The position numbers and the translations under genes are program-made. From the NCBI RefSeq assembly GCF_947241125.1, contig NZ_OX365700.1, positions 1,426,001 to 1,490,000 of the forward strand: 64,000 bases of DNA. The letters are read 5' to 3'. This DNA comes from Nitrospira tepida (lineage in GTDB: Bacteria > Nitrospirota > Nitrospiria > Nitrospirales > Nitrospiraceae). Under the pieces are notes generated by a model. It was given only the letters and a program-made list of their open reading frames with translations. It was not told the origin of the DNA and did not search any database. This document shows positions 43,701-55,588 of this stretch, piece after piece (the first letter of the stretch is position 1; the number at the start of each line of letters is the position of its first letter).

Positions 43701-44807
43701 CTATTCAATGACGGTGGCTTGCGGCGAGGGATCGACAACCATATCCAGGCCGGCACCCTGCCAGGGGTGGAGCCGTGGACCCTCGTACCGGTACCCGCCC
43801 CGCACGGGATCTAGGGCCAGGAGCAGCGGCGTGTCGAGATCCAACACATCGAACCCGCTGAAGCCGAGGACCAGGCTGAAGGAGCAGCCCATGGCGATCC
43901 GCGCTTCAACCATGCCGCCGATCATCAGACGCAGGCCCGAAGTCAGCGCGAACGAGGCGATTTCCAGTGCCGCCGCCACCCCGGTTTTCATGATCTTGAT
44001 ATTGATATAGTCCGCTGCCTGTTTGGACAGGACGGTTTTGGCGTCTTCCAGCGACCGGACCGATTCGTCGGCGGCAACAGGAATGCCGGTGAGATGGCGT
44101 AGGGCTGCAAGGCCGTCCAGGTCCTCCCGCGCGACCGGCTGCTCGAGCAGCACCAGGTAACCGCCGAATTGTTTCACTCCGCTCACGAAAGCCAAACAGG
44201 CCTCCCGTGAATAGCCTTGATTTGCATCCCCGATAAAGGCGATCCCCGGCAACCGTCGATGCACCGCCTCCAGCCGCCGGACATCTCCCTCCACGTCCTG
44301 GCCGATCTTCATCTTGAACAGCCGAAACCCTCGCTCATACCAATGGCGGGCCAGCCTGACCGTGTTGTCGAGATCGACGATGGGAATGGTGATGTCTGTT
44401 TCGCGCACTCGGACGTCTGCGCCGCCCCAAAACGCCCAGAGCGGCTGTCCCGTCGCATGGCAATAGGCATCGATGAGGGCGGTTTCGAGCCCACAGCGGG
44501 CCGAGGGCTGCGAAGCGGCCTGCGCGTACAGGCGATAGCCCAAGGTTCGATAATCCGCCGCCGATTGTCCGATCAGCGTCGTGGCCAGTTCAGTCGCCGC
44601 GGCCACACAGGCCTCCCTGGTTTCTCCGCCCACTTCGGGAAAGGGGGCGGCTTCCCCATAGCCCTGTGCGCCGCCGGCGAGGGTGACGCGGATGAAGACG
44701 TTTTCGGCCAGGGTCCGGGCCCCGGTCGCGACCACGAACGGGTCTGTGATGGGAATATCGACCGGCCAGAGTTCAATACGGGTGACGGTGAGAGAAGGGT
44801 CGTTCAT
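43701..44807 (-). CDS. Enolase-superfamily epimerase (dipeptide epimerase-like)
   Basis: The 368-residue protein is of the muconate-lactonizing subgroup: an N-terminal capping domain, then a barrel with KMKIG (first Lys pair), metal ligands in IGDANQGYS, LLEQPV and AADES, and the second Lys in INIKIMKTG. A late DLDTP has the DxD pattern seen in dipeptide epimerases, which bind the amino group of substrates such as L-Ala-D/L-Glu from peptidoglycan recycling. A dipeptide epimerase is the best guess; o-succinylbenzoate synthase is the alternative. Confidence 0.87.
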   Translation of the reverse strand: MNDPSLTVTRIELWPVDIPITDPFVVATGARTLAENVFIRVTLAGGAQGYGEAAPFPEVGGETREACVAAATELATTLIGQSAADYRTLGYRLYAQAASQPSARCGLETALIDAYCHATGQPLWAFWGGADVRVRETDITIPIVDLDNTVRLARHWYERGFRLFKMKIGQDVEGDVRRLEAVHRRLPGIAFIGDANQGYSREACLAFVSGVKQFGGYLVLLEQPVAREDLDGLAALRHLTGIPVAADESVRSLEDAKTVLSKQAADYINIKIMKTGVAAALEIASFALTSGLRLMIGGMVEARIAMGCSFSLVLGFSGFDVLDLDTPLLLALDPVRGGYRYEGPRLHPWQGAGLDMVVDPSPQATVIE

Positions 44808-45096: not shown

Positions 45097-45999
45097 GTGC
45101 GGTTTGCCCGAGACCCGCTCTCTCAGCATTCTTCTTCGTCCGGCCTAGTCATGACGCGGACCAAGGTGGTCGCGCTCGGGCTCGCGGCCTTGTTCATGCT
45201 CGCATTCCTGTGCGCGCAGCGGACGGCGATGACCTCGACGGCCGGCACCACGCGTGGGGCGGAGGCGAGCAAACTGTCCCTGTCGGTGGAAGACGGCAAG
45301 ATTGTGCTCCGCGGGGCGGTCCCTGATTCGGTGAAACAACTGCTCGTCGCCAAGGCCTACCAGGCGTTCGGGGCCGGATACGTAGCCAATCACCTGACGG
45401 TGGTGCCGGGCGCCACGGCGGAGGATTGGTCGCTGAAGGCGGCCGAGTCGATCCAAAAACTCAATTCCTGGGGCAGTGGCGGTCTCTCGTTTGATGGACG
45501 ACACGTGATCGTCAAGGGGGAGGCCAAGAATGAAGCCGAGAAGGCCAAGCGGACGGAGGAACTGGCCGGTGTTTTCGGCGCTTTGCTGAAGGTCGAAAAT
45601 CAGATGGAGCTTCCGGCGCAAGCGGCGCAGCCCAAGGCCTCGCCGGCTGTGGCGAAGATTCATGAGGCGCTGGCCGGCAAGACGATCGAGTTCGAGGTCA
45701 GCTCCGCCACCTTGACGCCGAGGGGGATGAAGGTCTTGGACGAGTTGGTCCCCATCATTCAATCGGACAAAGACCTGAAGCTGGAAATCGGCGGCCACAC
45801 AGACAATTACGGCGATCCGAAGTTCAACCAGTTGATCAGCCACGCGCGCGCAGTCGCGGTGGCGCAATATCTGGCGTCAAAGGGGGTCGATGGGCGTCGC
45901 CTGGTCTCGAAAGGCTACGGCGAATCGAAACCCATCGCCAGCAACAAAACCAAGGATGGGCGCAAGCAAAACCGGCGCGTCACGTTCGAGGCGCTGTAA
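45097..45999 (+). CDS. OmpA-family protein with BON-like N-terminal region
   Basis: The 300-residue protein starts with a short cytosolic part and a membrane or signal segment (VVALGLAALFMLAFLCAQ). Residues 55-190 contain two BON-like repeats (LSVEDGKIVLRGAVPDSVKQ and LSFDGRHVIVKGEAKNEAEK). The C-terminal 110 residues form an OmpA peptidoglycan-binding domain with LEIGGHTDNYGDPKFNQLIS, the family signature. The GTG at 45097 has a GGAG eight bases upstream; an ATG at 45151 is an alternative. It would connect membrane lipids to the cell wall. It precedes a coiled-coil gene by 35 bases. Confidence 0.85.
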   Translation: MRFARDPLSQHSSSSGLVMTRTKVVALGLAALFMLAFLCAQRTAMTSTAGTTRGAEASKLSLSVEDGKIVLRGAVPDSVKQLLVAKAYQAFGAGYVANHLTVVPGATAEDWSLKAAESIQKLNSWGSGGLSFDGRHVIVKGEAKNEAEKAKRTEELAGVFGALLKVENQMELPAQAAQPKASPAVAKIHEALAGKTIEFEVSSATLTPRGMKVLDELVPIIQSDKDLKLEIGGHTDNYGDPKFNQLISHARAVAVAQYLASKGVDGRRLVSKGYGESKPIASNKTKDGRKQNRRVTFEAL

Positions 46000-46034
46000 G
46001 CGGGACCGGTTCCGGTCTCCGTAGGACATTTTCC

Positions 46035-47360
46035 ATGGGACCCGTCATTCAAGAGTTGCTGCTGTGTCTGTTGCCCGCCGCGGCGATCGGGACCGTCGTC
46101 GGCTGGATGCTCAAGAAACTCTCGCTGGAAGACCAACAAATCGGCGTGACGCGTTTTGAGCTGGAAGTGAAACTCACCGCCGCCGAGCGGAAAGTGCAGG
46201 CCCTGCAGCGAGATCTGGAGGCCGCGCAACAATCGGCGGCTGACAAGGTCGGACTGATCGCGCAGGCCGAGGAGGCCGCCGCGCAACTGCGGGGCCAGGT
46301 GGCGGATCGGGACGAGGCCATCCAGGGTTTGCGCGCGCGACTGGCCTCGCTCGAATCGCTGCCGGCTAAGCTTACGATGCAGGAGGCGACGCTGGCTGAC
46401 CTGCGGGCCAGACTGGTCGCGATGGAAGAGTTGCCGGCGCAACTGGCTCAGCGGGACACCGAAGTGGCCGCCTTGCAGGCCCAACTGGGTGAAATGGTCG
46501 CGCGGGGCAGCGTGGAGGATTTGCGGATGCGGCTCCAGGCCGAGATTCACGAACTGCGCGAGCAATTGGCGTCCGCCCGGGCGACGGCCGAACAGGAAGA
46601 TGCCTGGGCGCGGCAATTGCTCGACGAGCGAGACGCCACGATCCGCAGCCTGCATGAGGAGCTGTCGCGTTTTCAGACGCAGGAGCGGGAACTGCATGTG
46701 CTCACGCACATCGTGGCGGAACGGGAACGGGAGATCGACAAGCTCGCGGCGTCGGTCGAGCGGTTGGAGCAGGTGGAGCAGGATCGGGACCGTTTGCGGA
46801 GTCTGGCCGAGCATTGGGAGCAGGAACTGGCGGCGTTGAAACAACGGCTCTCACAAGCTGATCATCAGGCGCAGGAGCTGCGCGAGCAGGCCGCCGGCCG
46901 CGAAGCCGCGCTGCGGGAAAACGAGCGTTGGCGGGTCGAGGCCGAGCGGCAGCGCCTGGCCCTTGCGGTGCGTGACGAAGAGATTCGAGAATTGCGCACT
47001 CGGTTGGAAGGGAGCGCTCCGCTGGTGAAGTTGGAAAAAGTCCGGACCAAGACCAAGGCGCTCAAGTCGCACGCGGTCGCTCCCAAAGCGAACAACTCAG
47101 CCCTGCCCAAATGGGGTGCCCACCTGCCGGACGGAGGCGCGCAGGACGATCTCACGTGCATCGCCGGGATTGGGCCGACGCTTGAAAAGCTGCTGCACCG
47201 CAACGGGGTGTTCTACTTCCGGCAGATCGCCTCCTGGACCAAAGACGACATCGACATGATTGACGCCAAGCTGGATACGTTCAAGGGCCGAATCCTGCGC
47301 GACAACTGGATCAAAGGCGCCAAGCAGGAGCATTTCAAAAAATACGGCGAACGATTGTAG
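46035..47360 (+). CDS. Membrane-anchored coiled-coil protein with C-terminal helix-hairpin-helix domain
   Basis: The 441-residue protein has one N-terminal membrane helix (IQELLLCLLPAAAIGTVVGWM), then about 320 residues of charged coiled coil (many Glu, Gln, Leu, Arg in heptads), and a C-terminal domain with LTCIAGIGPTLEKLLHRNGV and FRQIASWTKDDIDMIDAKL. The last is the helix-hairpin-helix 'predicted flap endonuclease-like' module also found fused to NADH dehydrogenase or ribosomal proteins. It could be an envelope scaffold. It probably shares a transcript with the OmpA gene. Confidence 0.8.
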   Translation: MGPVIQELLLCLLPAAAIGTVVGWMLKKLSLEDQQIGVTRFELEVKLTAAERKVQALQRDLEAAQQSAADKVGLIAQAEEAAAQLRGQVADRDEAIQGLRARLASLESLPAKLTMQEATLADLRARLVAMEELPAQLAQRDTEVAALQAQLGEMVARGSVEDLRMRLQAEIHELREQLASARATAEQEDAWARQLLDERDATIRSLHEELSRFQTQERELHVLTHIVAEREREIDKLAASVERLEQVEQDRDRLRSLAEHWEQELAALKQRLSQADHQAQELREQAAGREAALRENERWRVEAERQRLALAVRDEEIRELRTRLEGSAPLVKLEKVRTKTKALKSHAVAPKANNSALPKWGAHLPDGGAQDDLTCIAGIGPTLEKLLHRNGVFYFRQIASWTKDDIDMIDAKLDTFKGRILRDNWIKGAKQEHFKKYGERL

Positions 47361-47827: not shown

Positions 47828-49729
47828 ATGGCCATTCTCGATGCCTTTTACGGCGATCCCTTTTCGATCCTCTTCACGATCGCTCTTCTGGGCGTGGTCG
47901 CCACCTTGAGTTGGCTGGGAAAGGGGCGGAAGGCGATTCTGTTCCTCACGCTGCTTCTCTACATCCGCTACATGGTCTGGCGTGCCGTCTATACGTTGAA
48001 CACCGAAGACTGGATGACCACCCTGGCCGGTCTGGCGGTGTACTTCGCGGAAATCTACGCACTCTGCCAGGTGACCTTGTTTGTCTATCATGCCTGGTCT
48101 CCGCTCGATCGGCGTTCCGTGCCGACGAAACGCGGCCCGACGGTCGATGTCTTCGTGACGATCGTCAACGAACCGTTGGATATTCTTCGCCGCACGCTCA
48201 TCGGGTGTGTGAGCCAGCAATATCCGCAGGACAAATACACCGTCTATGTACTGGACGATGGCCAGCGGGACGATGTCAAGACGTTGGCCGCCTCATTCGG
48301 TTGCCAGTATATCCGGCGGCAGGATCGGCAGGGCGCCAAGGCCGGGAACCTCAATCACGCCTTACAGAGAACCACCGGTGAACTCATTGCCGTCTTTGAT
48401 GTGGATCATGTGCCGACACGGGTGTTTCTCAAGGAAACAGTCGGGCTTTTTGATGATCCACGAGTGGCCTTTGTCCAGACGCCCCATCACTTCTACAACC
48501 CGGACATTTTCCAGCGGAATCTCCGAATGGAACGGGTCCTCCGCAATGAACAAGCGCTGTTTTATCGCGTGCTCCAAGCCGGACGTGATGCCCATAACAG
48601 CGCATTTTTTGCCGGGAGCTGCGGGCTCTTTCGGCGACAACCGTTACTGGAGATCGGGGGATTCAAGACCGAGACCGTCACGGAAGACATCCATACCAGC
48701 ATGCTGATCCACGCAAGGGGCTATAAGTCTTGCTACCTCAACAAGGTGCTGGCCGTCGGGCTGATGCCTGAATCCTTCGACGCCTACATCAAGCAGCGGA
48801 CCCGCTGGGCGATCGGGCACGTGCAGATGTTTTTCAAGGATAATCCTTTGACCCTGCGCGGCCTGACGATCCCGCAGCGACTGGGATATCTGGCTTCCAT
48901 CCATTATTTTCTCCATGGACTGCCCCGAGTGATCTGCCTGACGGCTCCCCTCTTGGCCCTGTTGATGGGAATCATTCCTGTCACAGCCAGTGTGGCCTCA
49001 TTGGTGCACTATTTTGGGGCCTACTATATCGCGACGCTCGTGATGCTCCGGACGGTGAGTCACGGCACACGCAATGCATTTTGGTCGGAAGTTTACGAAA
49101 CGGCCATGTGCTTCCCGTTGCTCTGGGCGAATGTGAAAACCCTATTGAACCCCTGGAAGAAACGACCCTTCGTTGTGACTCCAAAGGGACGGCAACAGGA
49201 TAAGCCGAAGTGGAGTCACCTCACCCGTCTGGCGCCTCATCTGATCTGTTTGGGATTGCTCGTCGCCGGACTGTTCAACGGCATTCGCTTGTGGATGAGT
49301 CAGGAGCCCTATCCAGGATTGGAAGTCAGCCTGTTCTGGGGTGCCGTGAACGGCCTTTTCCTGAGCGTTGCTATCCTGGCGGCGACCGACCGGCCCGAGT
49401 GGAGAAAGACGTTGCGGGTCGGGTGCCGGCAACGGTGCGAAGTGCTCGCTGAGGGGCAGAGAAGCGAAGGCGTCACCAAGGAATTAGATGAACGCGGAGC
49501 TCTCGTGCGTCTCAAGAATCCAATTCTAGCGACCGGGGAAGACTGTTGGTTCCGCGTTCGGAACGAGCACGGTGGCCACCAACCTCGCGATCTCCGTGCA
49601 ACAGGCAAGGCCACGGGAATCCGTGGCGCTCGTGGACCTCGACGTCCATGGCGGGGATCTGGGTTTGTTCTTGGACCTGCGTGCCGCTCAAGGACTCAAG
49701 CACCTTTCAGAAGATGTCTCGCGGCTTGA
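47828..49729 (+). CDS. Cellulose-synthase-like GT2 with truncated PilZ region
   Basis: The protein is a processive membrane glycosyltransferase of the BcsA type: two N-terminal helices, then the GT2 core with VYVLDDGQRDD, FDVDHVPTR, TVTEDIHTS and QRTRWAIGH (the D, DxD, TED and QxxRW elements), then four to five more helices. From about residue 540 it enters a PilZ-like c-di-GMP region (RCEVLAEGQRSEGVTKELDE). That region is cut off near residue 570; the last 60 residues are out-of-frame translation of the CpaE-like gene that begins inside this frame. So the true C-terminus is missing or fused. No BcsB or BcsZ genes follow. The start ATG is at 47828. Confidence 0.85.
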   Translation: MAILDAFYGDPFSILFTIALLGVVATLSWLGKGRKAILFLTLLLYIRYMVWRAVYTLNTEDWMTTLAGLAVYFAEIYALCQVTLFVYHAWSPLDRRSVPTKRGPTVDVFVTIVNEPLDILRRTLIGCVSQQYPQDKYTVYVLDDGQRDDVKTLAASFGCQYIRRQDRQGAKAGNLNHALQRTTGELIAVFDVDHVPTRVFLKETVGLFDDPRVAFVQTPHHFYNPDIFQRNLRMERVLRNEQALFYRVLQAGRDAHNSAFFAGSCGLFRRQPLLEIGGFKTETVTEDIHTSMLIHARGYKSCYLNKVLAVGLMPESFDAYIKQRTRWAIGHVQMFFKDNPLTLRGLTIPQRLGYLASIHYFLHGLPRVICLTAPLLALLMGIIPVTASVASLVHYFGAYYIATLVMLRTVSHGTRNAFWSEVYETAMCFPLLWANVKTLLNPWKKRPFVVTPKGRQQDKPKWSHLTRLAPHLICLGLLVAGLFNGIRLWMSQEPYPGLEVSLFWGAVNGLFLSVAILAATDRPEWRKTLRVGCRQRCEVLAEGQRSEGVTKELDERGALVRLKNPILATGEDCWFRVRNEHGGHQPRDLRATGKATGIRGARGPRRPWRGSGFVLGPACRSRTQAPFRRCLAA

Positions 49730-50363
49730 TGAAACCATCATCAGGAGCACGATGTTGAGGCATGCGTCGGGACTCTACCTTCTGGCCTCCGGGTATGAGG
49801 GATTCGAAGATGTCGAGCCGAGGCCCGGCAGCGCCATGCGGGTGATCGGTCTCCTTCGATCCCTGCACCGGCATGTGGTGGTCGATTGCGGGCATGTCCT
49901 GGAGCCGGCCGTCAAAGAGGCTTGGGAAAGTTCAGATCAGGTCGTGGTTGTGACCACGCTCTCCTTGCCCGTCATTCGCCGAACCAGGCGGCTGCTGGAA
50001 GCCTTGAAAGTTGCGCACTTTCCGGGAAGCAAGATCGCGGTGGTCGTCAATCGCTATGGGAATGACCAGAAGGACTTGCTGGTCGAAACCGAGAATATGT
50101 TGGGTGTCCAAGCGGCCGGGCTGATTCCGAACGATTATGGGACGGCCAACGAGGCCGTCAATCATGGGAAGCCCCTGACGATGATGGCGCCGAGAACCTC
50201 GCTTGGGCGGTGGTTTGTGCAGGGAGCCGATCGGCTGATCGGCGACAGAACCGCCGCCAGCGGAGCGGCATCCGAACGGGGGCAGGATAAGAAGGGGTCG
50301 CTGCTCGGACGCTGTTTTGCGAGTCTCGGGCTCGAAGCCAAGGGCAAGCCGTCCATTGTCTGA
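49572..50363 (+). CDS. cpaE: CpaE/TadZ-like ATPase, 5'-truncated and lacking the Walker A lysine
   Basis: The frame reads from GTG 49572 as a MinD/CpaE-type ATPase: ATNLAISVQQ, VALVDLDVHGGDLGLFLDL (Walker A' region), VVVDCGHVLEPAVKEAW, VVTTLSLPVIRRTRRLLEA and VVVNRYGND. In the same frame upstream, RPGKTVGSAFGTSTV can be read back to a TAG at 49527. A CpaE normally has KGG(V)GT(S/T)T here, so the KGG of Walker A is missing, as if nine bases were deleted, and the entire N-terminal 100-130 residues are absent. It may be a remnant or a non-ATP-binding scaffold. It overlaps the end of the GT2 frame by 158 bases. CpaE localises Tad pilus machinery at the cell pole. Confidence 0.7.
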   Translation: MATNLAISVQQARPRESVALVDLDVHGGDLGLFLDLRAAQGLKHLSEDVSRLDETIIRSTMLRHASGLYLLASGYEGFEDVEPRPGSAMRVIGLLRSLHRHVVVDCGHVLEPAVKEAWESSDQVVVVTTLSLPVIRRTRRLLEALKVAHFPGSKIAVVVNRYGNDQKDLLVETENMLGVQAAGLIPNDYGTANEAVNHGKPLTMMAPRTSLGRWFVQGADRLIGDRTAASGAASERGQDKKGSLLGRCFASLGLEAKGKPSIV

Positions 50364-50417: not shown

Positions 50418-51731
50418 ATGCTGACCATGAAACAGATGAACGGGGCCGAGGCCTCCTCGCACTATCAAGCGCTGAAAGACCGGCTCCACCAACGTGTGAT
50501 CGAGTTGCTCGATCTGAATGCCGTGAGCGCGATGCCGCAAGAAGCCGTCACGGCCCAGTTGACCAAGTTGATCGAGCAACTCCTGCAGCAGGAATCGGTT
50601 CCGCTCAATCAACGGGAACGGGCTCAAATTACGCAAGATATTCTTCATGAGGTATTGGGGTTGGGACCGTTGGAGCCCTTGCTGGCCGATCCATCCGTGG
50701 CCGATATCCTCGTCAATGGGCACAAGCAGGTCTTTGTCGAGCGGTACGGGCGTCTCGAACTCACGCCGGTCCGATTCAAGGATGATGCACACCTGAAAAA
50801 AATCATTGAGAAGATCGTGTCACGTGTGGGGCGTCGCATCGATGAATCCGTGCCGATGGTGGATGCCCGGCTCGCGGACGGGTCCCGGGTCAACGCCATC
50901 ATTCCTCCGCTCGCGATCGACGGCCCGTCCCTCTCGATCAGAAAATTCAGCAAGGATCCGTTGCAGTTGTACCATTTGATCGAGAAACGCTCCCTGACTC
51001 CGGAAATCGGCGAATTGTTGAAGGCGATCGTGCAGGCGAGGTTGAACGTGCTGATCTCGGGCGGAACGGGATCGGGGAAAACCACCCTGTTGAACGTGTT
51101 GTCAGGATTCATCCCGAACAATGAACGGATCGTCACGATTGAGGACGCCGCCGAACTCCAACTCCGGCAGGACCATGTCGTCCGACTGGAAACACGTCCG
51201 GCCAATATCGAGGGGAAGGGCGAAATCGCGCAGCGGGAGCTAGTGAAAAACGCCCTCCGTATGAGGCCGGATCGGATCATTTTAGGCGAGGTCCGCGGGG
51301 CGGAGAGCCTCGACATGTTGCAGGCGATGAACACCGGACACGATGGATCATTGACGACGGTCCACGCCAACTCGCCTCGGGACGCCTTAACCAGGATCGA
51401 GACCTTGGTGTCGATGGCGGGGCTCAACCTGGCGACGAAGGCCATGCGGCATTACGTGTCATCCGCGTTGGATGTCATCATTCAGATTGCGCGATTGTCG
51501 GACGGCACGAGGAAACTGATCAGCCTGCAAGAGGTCGTCGGGATGGAAGGCGATCTCATCACGCTGCAGGAACTCTTCGTCTTCCAGCAGACCGGTCTGG
51601 ACGAAAATCGGAAGGTTAAAGGACGGTTCAAGGCCACCGGCGTACGGCCCAAGTTTACCGAACGGTTGACGGCCAAGGGCGTGGCCCTGCCTGCAGATCT
51701 GTTCGACCCGTTGAAGGTGTACGAATGCTGA
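50418..51731 (+). CDS. cpaF: Tad pilus assembly ATPase CpaF/TadA
   Basis: The 437-residue cytosolic ATPase powers Flp pilus assembly. It shows the CpaF layout: an N-terminal helical part, [20 protein letters not shown], the Walker [13 protein letters not shown] (about residue 214), an Asp box [10 protein letters not shown], a His box [15 protein letters not shown] and the Walker B region [12 protein letters not shown]. The start is probably ATG 50418; ATG 50427 is an alternative. It is followed by tadB with a seven-base overlap, as in intact Tad loci. Confidence 0.93.
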
Positions 51732-52690
51732 CCGTCCTGATCGCCTTGGGGATCTTCGTCACGATCCTGTTGTTTCTGCAAGGCTGTGCGGCCGTGCATC
51801 GAGCCATGGTTCCGCGCGGGATGGATCGCGCCATCGAGCGGATCCAGAAATGGTCGGCCCCGGAAGCGGCTGCTCAATTGGACATTGTCCGCAAGGAGTC
51901 GTTGAGCGACATTCCTTGGTTGAACGCTCTCTTGCTCCAGGCTCGTCGCATCCAACCTCTCCGCACGCTCCATCGGCAGGCGGACTGTCGGACTCCCTTG
52001 GGCCTGTTCGTGCTGGCCATGCCTCTCTTAGGATTGGCGGGACTCATGACGGCCCTGTCACTGCACGTCCCCCTTGCGCCGGCGGTCCTCCTGGCGGCGT
52101 CGGCGGGCTCCCTGCCGGCCTGCTACCTCTATTGGCTCAAGCGTCAACGGATGGCGATGTTTGAACGTCAGTTGCCGGAGGCGCTGGAACTCGTCTCGCG
52201 AGCCCTCCGGGCCGGGCATGCGTTCTCAGTGGGGTTGAAGCTGGTTGGAGAGGAGGCGGCCGATCCCATCGGCATGGAGTTTCGGCGGGTCTTTGAAGAG
52301 GTGGCAATGGGAGTCGCCCTTCCGCAGGCGCTCCAGAACATGACCAACCGGATTGATTGCGTGGATTTGCGGTTCTTCGTGACGTCGGTGCTGGTCCAGC
52401 GGGAGACCGGCGGCAACCTCGCGGAGATCATCGATTCGTTGGCCGGACTCATCCGCGAACGGTTCGAGTTGCAGCTCAGAGTGCGGGCCTTGTCTGCAGA
52501 AGGGCGGATGTCGGCAATTGTGTTGTTCGGCCTTCCGCTATTTGTGGGGGGGCTCCTCTTTAAAATGAATCCTGAGTACATGGGGCTCTTGTTCACGGAT
52601 CCCTGGGGTCAGAATCTCGCGACCGTCGGCAGCCTGTTGATGGTGATCGGCGCGGCGGTGATGAAACGGATGGTGGCGATTAAGGTCTGA
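51725..52690 (+). CDS. tadB: Tad inner-membrane platform protein TadB
   Basis: The 321-residue protein is of the GspF/TadB type: an N-terminal membrane helix, a pair of helices near 85-120, the cytoplasmic T2SSF domain with [20 protein letters not shown] and [20 protein letters not shown], and two C-terminal helices. With TadC it forms the inner-membrane platform on which the CpaF ATPase acts. Its ATG lies inside the end of cpaF. Confidence 0.9.
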
Positions 52691-52700
52691 GGAGCCAACC

Positions 52701-53657
52701 ATGGATGTCCCATTGATCGGTGCGGTCGTCACATTTCTAGCTGTTCTGCTGGCGAGTTCAGCTGGGATTCTCTATCTCAATTCAAGAGAGGCGCTGAAAG
52801 TCTGGCGCCGACGGGCGGATGGCGACCGAGCCGTCGCGGAGGCTGATGAGGTTTCTCCCGGAGTCGTCGAGCAGGTCAAAGTGCAAGTGTATGCCCTGCT
52901 CGAATGGTTGGGTAAGCTGAATCAGCCGTCCAACTCGGAGGAGGTGCGCGCGACGCGGGGCAAGTTGGTCTGCGCCGGTTACCGTAGCGGGAAAGCGTCC
53001 TTGTTCTACGTCGGCGCCAAGCTGTTGCTGGCGGTGATCGCCGTCTGTCTGATAGCCCTGATTCCAGCCAAGGTCCTTGGGTTCCCCAGCACTACGCAAT
53101 TGATTTTTTACTATGTCTTGGCCGCAGCCTGCGGGTATTATGCTCCATCGTTGTGGCTGCGCAGGGCGATTGCGAGCCGCCAGGATGCGCTCCAGCGGGC
53201 GATCCCGGATGCATTGGACCTGATGGTGGTCTGTGTGGAGGCCGGGCTCGGATTGGATCAGGCCATCGGGCGGGTCGGCGAAGAGGTCAAGCGCGCCCAT
53301 CCGGCTTTGGGCGATGAGCTGAACCTCCTGGCCCTTGAATTACGAACGGGCGTCACGCGGCAGGAGGCGCTGAGAAATTTGGCGCACCGCACGGATTTGG
53401 AGGAAGTGAGAAATCTGGTTGCGATTCTGGTTCAGACAGACCGATTCGGGACCAGTATCGGCCAGGCCCTTCGCGTCCATGCGGATTCCATGCGAACGAC
53501 GCGCCGGCTCAAGGCGGAAGAGCTGGCAGCCAAGTTACCGGTCAAGCTCCTGTTGCCCCTCATCTTCTTCATTTTCCCCAGCATGTTCATCGTCACGATC
53601 GGGCCGGCTTGCATCCGCATGGTGAGAGTGCTCTTTCCCGCGCTGCTCGGTCAATAA
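52701..53657 (+). CDS. tadC: Tad inner-membrane platform protein TadC
   Basis: The 318-residue protein is the second T2SSF platform subunit. Helices at the N-terminus and near 110-150 precede the domain with AIPDALDLMVVCVEAGLGLD and VAILVQTDRFGTSIGQALRV. The C-terminal helix KLLLPLIFFIFPSMFIVTIG is followed by the end of the protein. It follows tadB by ten bases. The Tad locus stops here: there is no tadD, tadE/F or prepilin peptidase gene after it. Confidence 0.9.
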   Translation: MDVPLIGAVVTFLAVLLASSAGILYLNSREALKVWRRRADGDRAVAEADEVSPGVVEQVKVQVYALLEWLGKLNQPSNSEEVRATRGKLVCAGYRSGKASLFYVGAKLLLAVIAVCLIALIPAKVLGFPSTTQLIFYYVLAAACGYYAPSLWLRRAIASRQDALQRAIPDALDLMVVCVEAGLGLDQAIGRVGEEVKRAHPALGDELNLLALELRTGVTRQEALRNLAHRTDLEEVRNLVAILVQTDRFGTSIGQALRVHADSMRTTRRLKAEELAAKLPVKLLLPLIFFIFPSMFIVTIGPACIRMVRVLFPALLGQ

Positions 53658-53669
53658 TTCGGAGCGGAC

Positions 53670-54554
53670 TTGTCTCGCTCGTCCCTCACCCAGATCGTGG
53701 AAACGGCCCTCGCCTCTCGGCTGCTGGCCGATGGGGGGCTGGCCGACCTGCCCGGTGGTCGGTTCCGGGTCGATGCGACCGCCTGGGGAATTCTTGCCCT
53801 CCGTGCATCCGGGGCACGACAGGAATCGCTCGGACCGCTCAGGGGGCGTCTGGCCCAGGAACAAGGAGCGGATGGCCGAGTCTGGATGGATCGAAACCAT
53901 CCCGATGCCTATTGGCCGACCGCGCTCGCCATCCTCGCCTGGCAGGATTCTCCGGCAAACCGCCTCGCTCAGAGCCGTGCGATCCATTTTCTCCTTGATG
54001 CCAGCGGTGTGCACTATCATCGGCGCCCCGATGATCCTGTGGCGCACAATACATTCTTGAAAGGATGGCCTTGGGTCGCAGGCACTCATTCCTGGATTGA
54101 GCCCACCGCACTGAGTGTGATGGCATTACGGGTAACGGGGTTTGGCCAACATGAACGTGTTCGTGAGGCCATCCTGATGATGCTGGACCGGCAGTTGCCT
54201 CATGGAGGATGGAATTACGGGAATACGCTCGTGTTCGGGCAGGAACTGCATCCGATGCCGGAAAGTACGGGAGCCGCGTTGGCCGGATTGGCCGGGCAGG
54301 TTTCTCAGGACAAGGTGGCACGCAGCCTCGAATATATGCTCGGAGAGGTGGGTCGTCTACGGACGCCCCTCTCGTTGGGATGGGCTTTGCTCGGGCTTGC
54401 CGCTTGGGGTCGGACGCCAGCCAACAGCGATGCTCTGGTCGAACTGTGTCTGGCCAACCAATCCCGCTATGGCCCCTACGACACGTCCGCGCTTAGTCTC
54501 CTATTCCTGGCTGCCTCGGGCAGCGGGCTCGTAGCGACGAGCCATACATCATAA
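53670..54554 (+). CDS. Alpha/alpha-toroid protein (prenyltransferase/squalene-cyclase-like repeat)
   Basis: The TTG start at 53670 has GGAG four bases upstream. The 294-residue protein has repeated helices of the prenyltransferase/squalene-oxidase repeat type (VDATAWGILALRASGARQ, YWPTALAILAWQDSP, WIEPTALSVMALRVTGFGQ, GGWNYGNT, LSLGWALLGLAAWG, YDTSALSLLFLAAS). These give an alpha/alpha toroid, as in terpene cyclases and complement-like proteins. No DxDD cyclase motif was seen, so it may be a binding toroid. It has no signal. It is 12 bases after tadC and nine bases before the DUF362 gene, and so is part of one operon. Confidence 0.75.
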   Translation: MSRSSLTQIVETALASRLLADGGLADLPGGRFRVDATAWGILALRASGARQESLGPLRGRLAQEQGADGRVWMDRNHPDAYWPTALAILAWQDSPANRLAQSRAIHFLLDASGVHYHRRPDDPVAHNTFLKGWPWVAGTHSWIEPTALSVMALRVTGFGQHERVREAILMMLDRQLPHGGWNYGNTLVFGQELHPMPESTGAALAGLAGQVSQDKVARSLEYMLGEVGRLRTPLSLGWALLGLAAWGRTPANSDALVELCLANQSRYGPYDTSALSLLFLAASGSGLVATSHTS

Positions 54555-54562
54555 GGAGCATT

Positions 54563-55588
54563 GTGTCGAATCAGAGGGAATCGAAACTTGGACAAGGCCT
54601 GACTCGTCGCGATCTGCTCTTTGCAGGGGCGGCAGGGGTGGTCATTGGAACCGGATGGTTGCTGCTCCCCAAGCGGTATCTTCGGCTGCCGCAACAGGCT
54701 CAAACCTTTGTCGCGAAGGCGGCTCGGTACGAGTTGGATATCGCCGATGCGATTTCACGTGGCCTGCGCGAGCTGGGAGTGACGGCTGAGGAAGTGAAGG
54801 GCAAACGGATTCTGCTCAAGCCGAATCTTGTGGAGACCAGTTCCAGGGCGCCCCACATCAATACCCATCCGCTGGTCCTGCGTGGGGCGATTGAAGCATT
54901 CCTCGGACTTGGGGCGGGGTCCGTCATGGTCGCCGAAGGACCTGGTCATCGGAGAGATACGCTGGCGGTCTATGAAGAATCCGGCCTGGCGGATGTGCTG
55001 ACGGAAGATCGCATCACGTTTCACGACCTGAATTACATCACGGGCTATGAGATGGCGAATGTCGGGAGGCAGACCTCCTTACCGACGCTGACGTTTCCCG
55101 CCCTGTTCAAGGAAGTCGATTGGATTGTTTCCGTGGCCAAAATGAAGACGCACCATTGGGCTGGCGCGACGTTGTCGATGAAAAACCTGTTCGGCGTGAT
55201 GCCCGGCATCTATTATGGCTGGCCGAAGAACGTGTTGCACCATGCGGGGATCGAAAATTCGATCCTGGATATCAACGCGACGTTGAAGCCGCAGTTTGCG
55301 ATTGTGGACGGCATCGTCGGCATGGAAGGCGATGGCCCGATCATGGGCGATCCCAAGCAGGTGGGGGTGCTCGTGATGGGGCGCAATCTTCCGGCGGTGG
55401 ATGCGACTTGTTGCCGGATCATGGGGATTGATCCGTACAGGCTGTCGTATTTGGCTCGGGCCGATCGCTGGCTGGGACCGATCGATGACTCCTGTATCGA
55501 GCAGCGGGGCGAAACGATCGCGTCCGTGCGCACCGACTTTCGGTTGATCGAGAAGATTCCCGCGCAGCAAGGAATTCGTCTCGCTTGA
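54563..55588 (+). CDS. Tat-exported DUF362-domain protein
   Basis: The GTG start follows AAGGAGCATT. The N-terminus has a twin-arginine signal (TRRDLLFAGAAGVVIGTGW). The mature domain is DUF362: RILLKPNLVETSS, NTHPLVLRGAIEAFLGLGAG, VAEGPGHRRDTL, MKTHHWAGATLSMKNLFGVM and later VDGIVGMEGDGP. These blocks are typical of DUF362 proteins, some of which carry Fe-S clusters in longer versions; this one has no ferredoxin part. The function of the family is unknown. The location after a toroid gene in a Tad operon is unexpected. Confidence 0.85.
   Translation: MSNQRESKLGQGLTRRDLLFAGAAGVVIGTGWLLLPKRYLRLPQQAQTFVAKAARYELDIADAISRGLRELGVTAEEVKGKRILLKPNLVETSSRAPHINTHPLVLRGAIEAFLGLGAGSVMVAEGPGHRRDTLAVYEESGLADVLTEDRITFHDLNYITGYEMANVGRQTSLPTLTFPALFKEVDWIVSVAKMKTHHWAGATLSMKNLFGVMPGIYYGWPKNVLHHAGIENSILDINATLKPQFAIVDGIVGMEGDGPIMGDPKQVGVLVMGRNLPAVDATCCRIMGIDPYRLSYLARADRWLGPIDDSCIEQRGETIASVRTDFRLIEKIPAQQGIRLA

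Follow-up and report, generated by a model that had tools for sequence, protein, structure and literature searches.

A probable chromosomal deletion joins a GT2 glycosyltransferase gene to the middle of cpaE in a Tad/Flp pilus locus of Nitrospira tepida

Introduction

In the model of the Caulobacter Tad machine, CpaC, CpaB, the CpaF motor, the platform proteins and CpaE make up one complex (PMC13170226). The CpaE homologue TadZ has an atypical receiver domain and a deviant Walker A motif that binds ATP for dimerisation (PMC13170226). Among Nitrospira relatives, the Tad/Flp (type IVc) pilus locus reads flp-tadV-cpaB-cpaC-tadE-tadG-cpaE-cpaF-tadB-tadC; our literature search found no paper describing this locus in Nitrospira. 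Here we analysed 64,000 nucleotides of the Nitrospira tepida chromosome (the window; NZ_OX365700.1, positions 1,426,001-1,490,000). The C-terminal part of cpaE, cpaF, tadB, tadC and the next two genes occur there in the identical order and encode proteins 58-93% identical to those of the relatives, whereas flp through the N-terminal domain of cpaE is missing. A neighboring gene resembles BcsA/CelA-type cellulose synthase-like GT2 glycosyltransferases with PilZ: it shares their catalytic and membrane portions and, of the first PilZ domain, the initial two thirds, but has lost the C-terminal part.

Results

GT2 and CpaE homologies meet at a single junction

At the left edge of the retained Tad genes, a GT2 open reading frame and the cpaE remnant share 158 bases, read in different frames. 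Comparison with related genomes, chiefly G185 and G017, resolved the region as follows.

47828-49729, plus strand: GT2 open reading frame, 633 aa (634 codons)
47828..49561, plus strand: BcsA/CelA-like GT2 glycosyltransferase, 578 GT2-like codons, 65% identical to the G185 GT2 (codons 1-567)
49560..49564, no strand: putative deletion junction, from codon-level comparison with GT2 and cpaE of G185 and G017
49562..49729, plus strand: out-of-frame tail of the GT2 open reading frame, 55 codons of cpaE DNA in the wrong frame (the cpaE frame is 65-68% identical to CpaE)
49560..50363, plus strand: cpaE remnant, the C-terminal 267 codons of a ParA/MinD-like ATPase, 68% identical to G017 CpaE residues 141-406
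49572-50363, plus strand: cpaE-frame open reading frame overlapping the GT2 one in a different frame, 263 aa

The junction is really present in the sequence. GT2 likeness of the gene starting at 47828 extends to about codon 578 (49561), and its frame, GALVRLKNPILATGEDCWFRVRN, tracks the G185 homologue, GALIRVNKQFLKGDGPILCIVKN, to about 49564. CpaE-like sequence begins at 49560 with the last Gly of Walker A, in a frame other than that of GT2. The two homologies overlap by a few bases: 49560..49564 match both parents, and the position of the breakpoint is uncertain to that extent.

Read upstream, the cpaE frame continues as RPGKTVGSAFGTSTV... until a TAG at 49527-49529, as an earlier note on this DNA had reported. 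Close cpaE homologues in related genomes (up to 68% identical) show GRVVSVIGARGGVG[TAV]STVATNLA (GARGGVG[TAV]STVATNLA) or a near variant, of which the window cpaE has only G-T-S-T-V-A onward, from 49560. The bases before 49560 are the PilZ region of GT2, where the GT2 frame ...GEDCWFRVRN aligned with ...GPILCIVKN of the G185 GT2; the apparent "GSA" and the TAG are therefore GT2 DNA in the wrong frame. "RPGKTVGSAF" was likewise ruled out as cpaE sequence, being GT2 DNA in the wrong frame. The earlier note had counted three codons missing from cpaE. That count was wrong: a three-codon deletion within Walker A is ruled out since GT2 DNA precedes GTSTV, and nothing of cpaE is left ahead of the final Gly of Walker A. 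Comparison with homologues did confirm its observations that cpaE lacks the N-terminal domain as well as the KGG of Walker A, and the GT2 frame does stop being protein-like at the same place, where its tail is cpaE DNA in the wrong frame.

Both joined genes are incomplete

The GT2 catalytic domain is present (PF13641, E 2e-25; TIGR03030, E 8e-164). The TIGR03030 CelA score fell under the curated cut-off in the window gene and likewise in its intact G185 relative, so we call the protein cellulose-synthase-like rather than cellulose synthase. The G185 GT2 is 756 aa long with two PilZ stretches. In the window, the PilZ domain is cut after about two thirds, and the remaining C-terminus, with the second PilZ-like repeat, is missing. 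No complete PilZ domain remains: in the window gene, the Pfam PilZ (PF07238) match spans profile positions 3-68 of 102 and includes some out-of-frame sequence, versus 3-96 in the G185 gene. In all 34 GT2 homologues with at least 50% identity and near-complete coverage of the query, the open frame is 749-962 codons long, versus 634 in the window; three partial matches were shorter. The predicted GT2 would have kept its catalytic part, lost its PilZ end and gained 55 unrelated residues, leaving it probably inactive or uncontrolled.

The cpaE remnant lacks the receiver-like N-terminal domain, which was found neither at this locus nor elsewhere in the genome, and Walker A up to its last Gly. It enters the MinD profile TIGR01968 at position 14. 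The deviant Walker A motif [KR]GGxGxS is absent, only the final G-T-S-T being cpaE-derived. A start-codon scan placed the first usable start at GTG 49572, without a Shine-Dalgarno sequence. By comparison, the open frames of all 15 close cpaE homologues (58-68% identical) span 413-446 codons, and every homologue that was read has a full Walker A. Across the family, cpaE matched at E<=1e-10 in only 32 of 175 genomes. Some family members encode naturally short CpaE proteins (G029, locus L043, and G014, locus L046; open frames of 296 and 324 codons) in which the N-terminal domain is absent and GAKGGVGTST is intact. Because such short proteins keep Walker A, a missing N-terminus alone is no proof of damage; on sequence grounds, it is the loss of Walker A together with the join to GT2 DNA that proves cpaE damaged. 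The remnant is predicted to be incapable of normal ATP binding and is probably translated poorly. In its C-terminal part, 8 of 90 positions invariant in relatives have changed, versus 0-8 in controls, which does not indicate clearly relaxed constraint.

Relatives carry the intervening genes intact

The genes flanking the junction on either side are as follows.

43701..44807, minus strand: enolase-superfamily-like gene (family named by eye), left flank, 70% identical and in the same order and strand in G185
50418..51731, plus strand: cpaF, pilus motor ATPase, intact, 89% identical to G017 and 91% to G185 CpaF
51725..52690, plus strand: tadB, inner-membrane platform protein, intact, 65-81% identical to relatives
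52701..53657, plus strand: tadC, inner-membrane platform protein, intact, 68-79% identical to relatives
53670..54554, plus strand: prenyltransferase/squalene-cyclase-like gene (cyclase match weak), right flank, 59-69% identical, after tadC in relatives too
54563..55588, plus strand: Npun_F2552-like gene (NF052623, NCBIfam, below cut-off), right flank, 75-83% identical, same order in relatives

The motor CpaF and the platform proteins TadB and TadC that a Tad/Flp system requires are thus present, intact and conserved. Few positions invariant in relatives have changed in cpaF (3/303), tadB (1/134) or tadC (1/140), and the decay of the remaining Tad genes that might have served as a sign of age was not seen.

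The earlier note had proposed aligning related genomes in search of an intact cpaE with GT2 or flp/cpaB/cpaC. We found the ancestral arrangement intact and in the same order in four relatives (G185, G152, G187 and G150) belonging to two genera other than that of the window: a full-length GT2 with its PilZ end intact, then a BcsS-like gene (not detected in G152), an NtrC-type regulator, a 100-aa gene and a TPR gene, followed by flp, tadV and cpaB onward. In G152, G187 and G150 this order was read as far as the contigs reach. The full G185 order, left to right, is mmsB-like, enolase-superfamily-like, GT2 (756 aa), BcsS-like, NtrC-type activator, 100-aa gene, TPR gene (opposite strand), flp, tadV, cpaB, two cpaC-like genes, lipoprotein, tadE, tadG, cpaE, cpaF, tadB, tadC and then the same pair of genes as in the window. 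The mmsB-like and enolase-superfamily-like genes also lie to the left of GT2 in the window, so that both outer flanks are found in G185, where 10,551 bases separate the homologous breakpoints. This before-state is taken from other genera at about 65% protein identity, the N. tepida genome being the sole representative of its genus in the comparison set, and several of the relatives are fragmented MAGs.

Some local differences accompany this shared order. Between the enolase-like gene and GT2, the window has an OmpA/BON-domain gene and a coiled-coil gene (45097-47360, the latter at 46035-47360), and G185 has DsbA-like and molybdopterin-oxidoreductase-like genes (named by eye). In G152 (L112, G152:C103, 8322-12805), flp and the TPR gene are about 4.5 kb apart, a much wider spacing than in G185, and GT2 has no BcsS-like match beside it. 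The CpaC gene of G185 (L070, 10770-12020) has an apparent frameshift near residue 385 relative to G017 CpaC, leaving two pieces in different frames.

Missing parts are not found elsewhere in the genome

We searched the genome, a single contig of 4.73 Mb given as 100% complete, for the missing parts. Full-length G185 CpaE and GT2 queries returned only the 3' and 5' parts, respectively, at the junction, besides weak matches to general relatives; no second CpaE N-terminus or GT2 C-terminus was found. The CpaC query matched three distant secretins only (25-39% identical over part of the protein). A concatenated query of CpaB, TadV, TadE and TadG, less sensitive than separate searches, gave nothing credible. 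The RcpC/CpaB model PF16976 had no match in the genome, nor did the Flp_Fap model PF04964 at E<=1, although the latter recognises the G185 pilin. Within the concatenated query, which covered the TadV type of prepilin peptidase, G185 TadV had no match in the genome. The secretin CpaC and assembly protein CpaB required by a Tad/Flp system are therefore lacking, as are the required Flp pilin and TadV. Since the tested missing parts were found nowhere else in the genome, these data point to loss rather than relocation.

Losses in the same locus occur in other genomes

In G114 (L114, G114:C57, around 9170), a different, independent deletion has joined the BcsS-like gene to the middle of the Npun_F2552-like gene (residue ~164); NtrC, the entire Tad cluster and also the cyclase-like gene are missing at the join. 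G164 has the GT2 and BcsS-like genes and no Tad genes in the stretch read. Judging from these arrangements, loss in this locus is not unique to the window genome.

Discussion

These data argue strongly that one chromosomal deletion, about 10.6 kb long relative to G185, joined GT2 to the middle of cpaE and removed most of the Tad/Flp genes. The suggestion in the earlier note that a deletion had joined two genes is borne out, in that relatives hold the intervening ~10.6 kb intact and in the same order and the tested parts are absent elsewhere. The deletion would span from about codon 579 of the BcsA-like GT2-PilZ gene to about codon 142 of cpaE. It would have taken, on the left, the GT2 C-terminus from the last part of the first PilZ domain onward, the BcsS-like outer-membrane gene and the NtrC-type regulator; in the middle, two small or accessory genes, the Flp pilin, the prepilin peptidase TadV, CpaB and the CpaC pair; and on the right, the lipoprotein, TadE, TadG and both the receiver-like domain and Walker A of CpaE. 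A GT2 without its PilZ control end, the cpaE remnant and an intact but stranded CpaF-TadB-TadC inner-membrane motor would be left over. We found no repeat spanning the junction in the window and no long direct repeat at the breakpoints; because the G185 breakpoint regions share only a word of up to 8 bases, at chance level, illegitimate recombination with very short or no homology is probably the cause (the true parental sequence may differ from G185). As a deletion scar, the junction is biologically ordinary. Since cpaF, tadB and tadC are undecayed, either the deletion is recent on the time scale of the genus's divergence or the remnants are still of use; we consider that the deletion looks recent.

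The same lack of decay would fit an assembly artefact, with a complete cluster in the organism and 10.6 kb left out by the assembler. We regard this explanation as improbable, and less likely than a deletion: the assembly is one contig given as complete, it contains the tested missing parts nowhere, and there is no long repeat to mislead an assembler, at most 8 bases being shared at the G185 breakpoints and none spanning the junction in the window. A deletion carried by only part of the source population, for example under selection in planktonic laboratory culture, with the majority form assembled, is a sub-case of the deletion; undecayed neighbors mean that the event could be very recent, but we think a mixed culture rather unlikely. 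An inversion or translocation that moved the missing half elsewhere in the chromosome would produce a breakpoint of the same local appearance. The own-genome searches, which returned only the GT2 5' part and the cpaE 3' part and none of the tested intervening genes, ruled out translocation of the missing half and make any such rearrangement the least credible reading of all.

The overlap of the two open reading frames could also suggest a functional GT2-CpaE fusion or a dual-frame gene under selection. Against this, the join is out of frame, Walker A is destroyed, the first cpaE start codon has no Shine-Dalgarno sequence and no homologue that we saw carries the join; a conserved fusion is ruled out, with no second case among the 175 family genomes. 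Such a functional fusion is unlikely, and markedly so. It is also quite doubtful, if slightly less far-fetched, that the Tad locus beside the BcsA-like GT2 has been repeatedly lost in Nitrospira by separate deletions, with the PilZ-less GT2 and pilus-less CpaF-TadB-TadC kept here for a function of their own.

With a single deletion as the preferred explanation, what is left here is the remnant of a Tad/Flp system rather than a working one. As CpaE is broken and the pilin, peptidase, secretin and CpaB have been lost, this locus is not expected to make a Tad/Flp pilus. The GT2 is probably inactive or free of PilZ control. The 633-aa GT2 and short CpaE of the window are not natural proteins, and automatic annotation could falsely suggest a Tad pilus here. 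In a family of nitrite oxidisers for which biofilm growth matters, an attachment system appears to have been lost recently, and N. tepida is possibly a natural Tad-minus strain.

A parallel is known among Nitrospira genomes: a table note in PMC7522533 describes two nxrB genes of N. moscoviensis as fused following a deletion in the genome. There, too, two genes were joined by deletion; in the window, by contrast, the join is out of frame and lies between unrelated genes.
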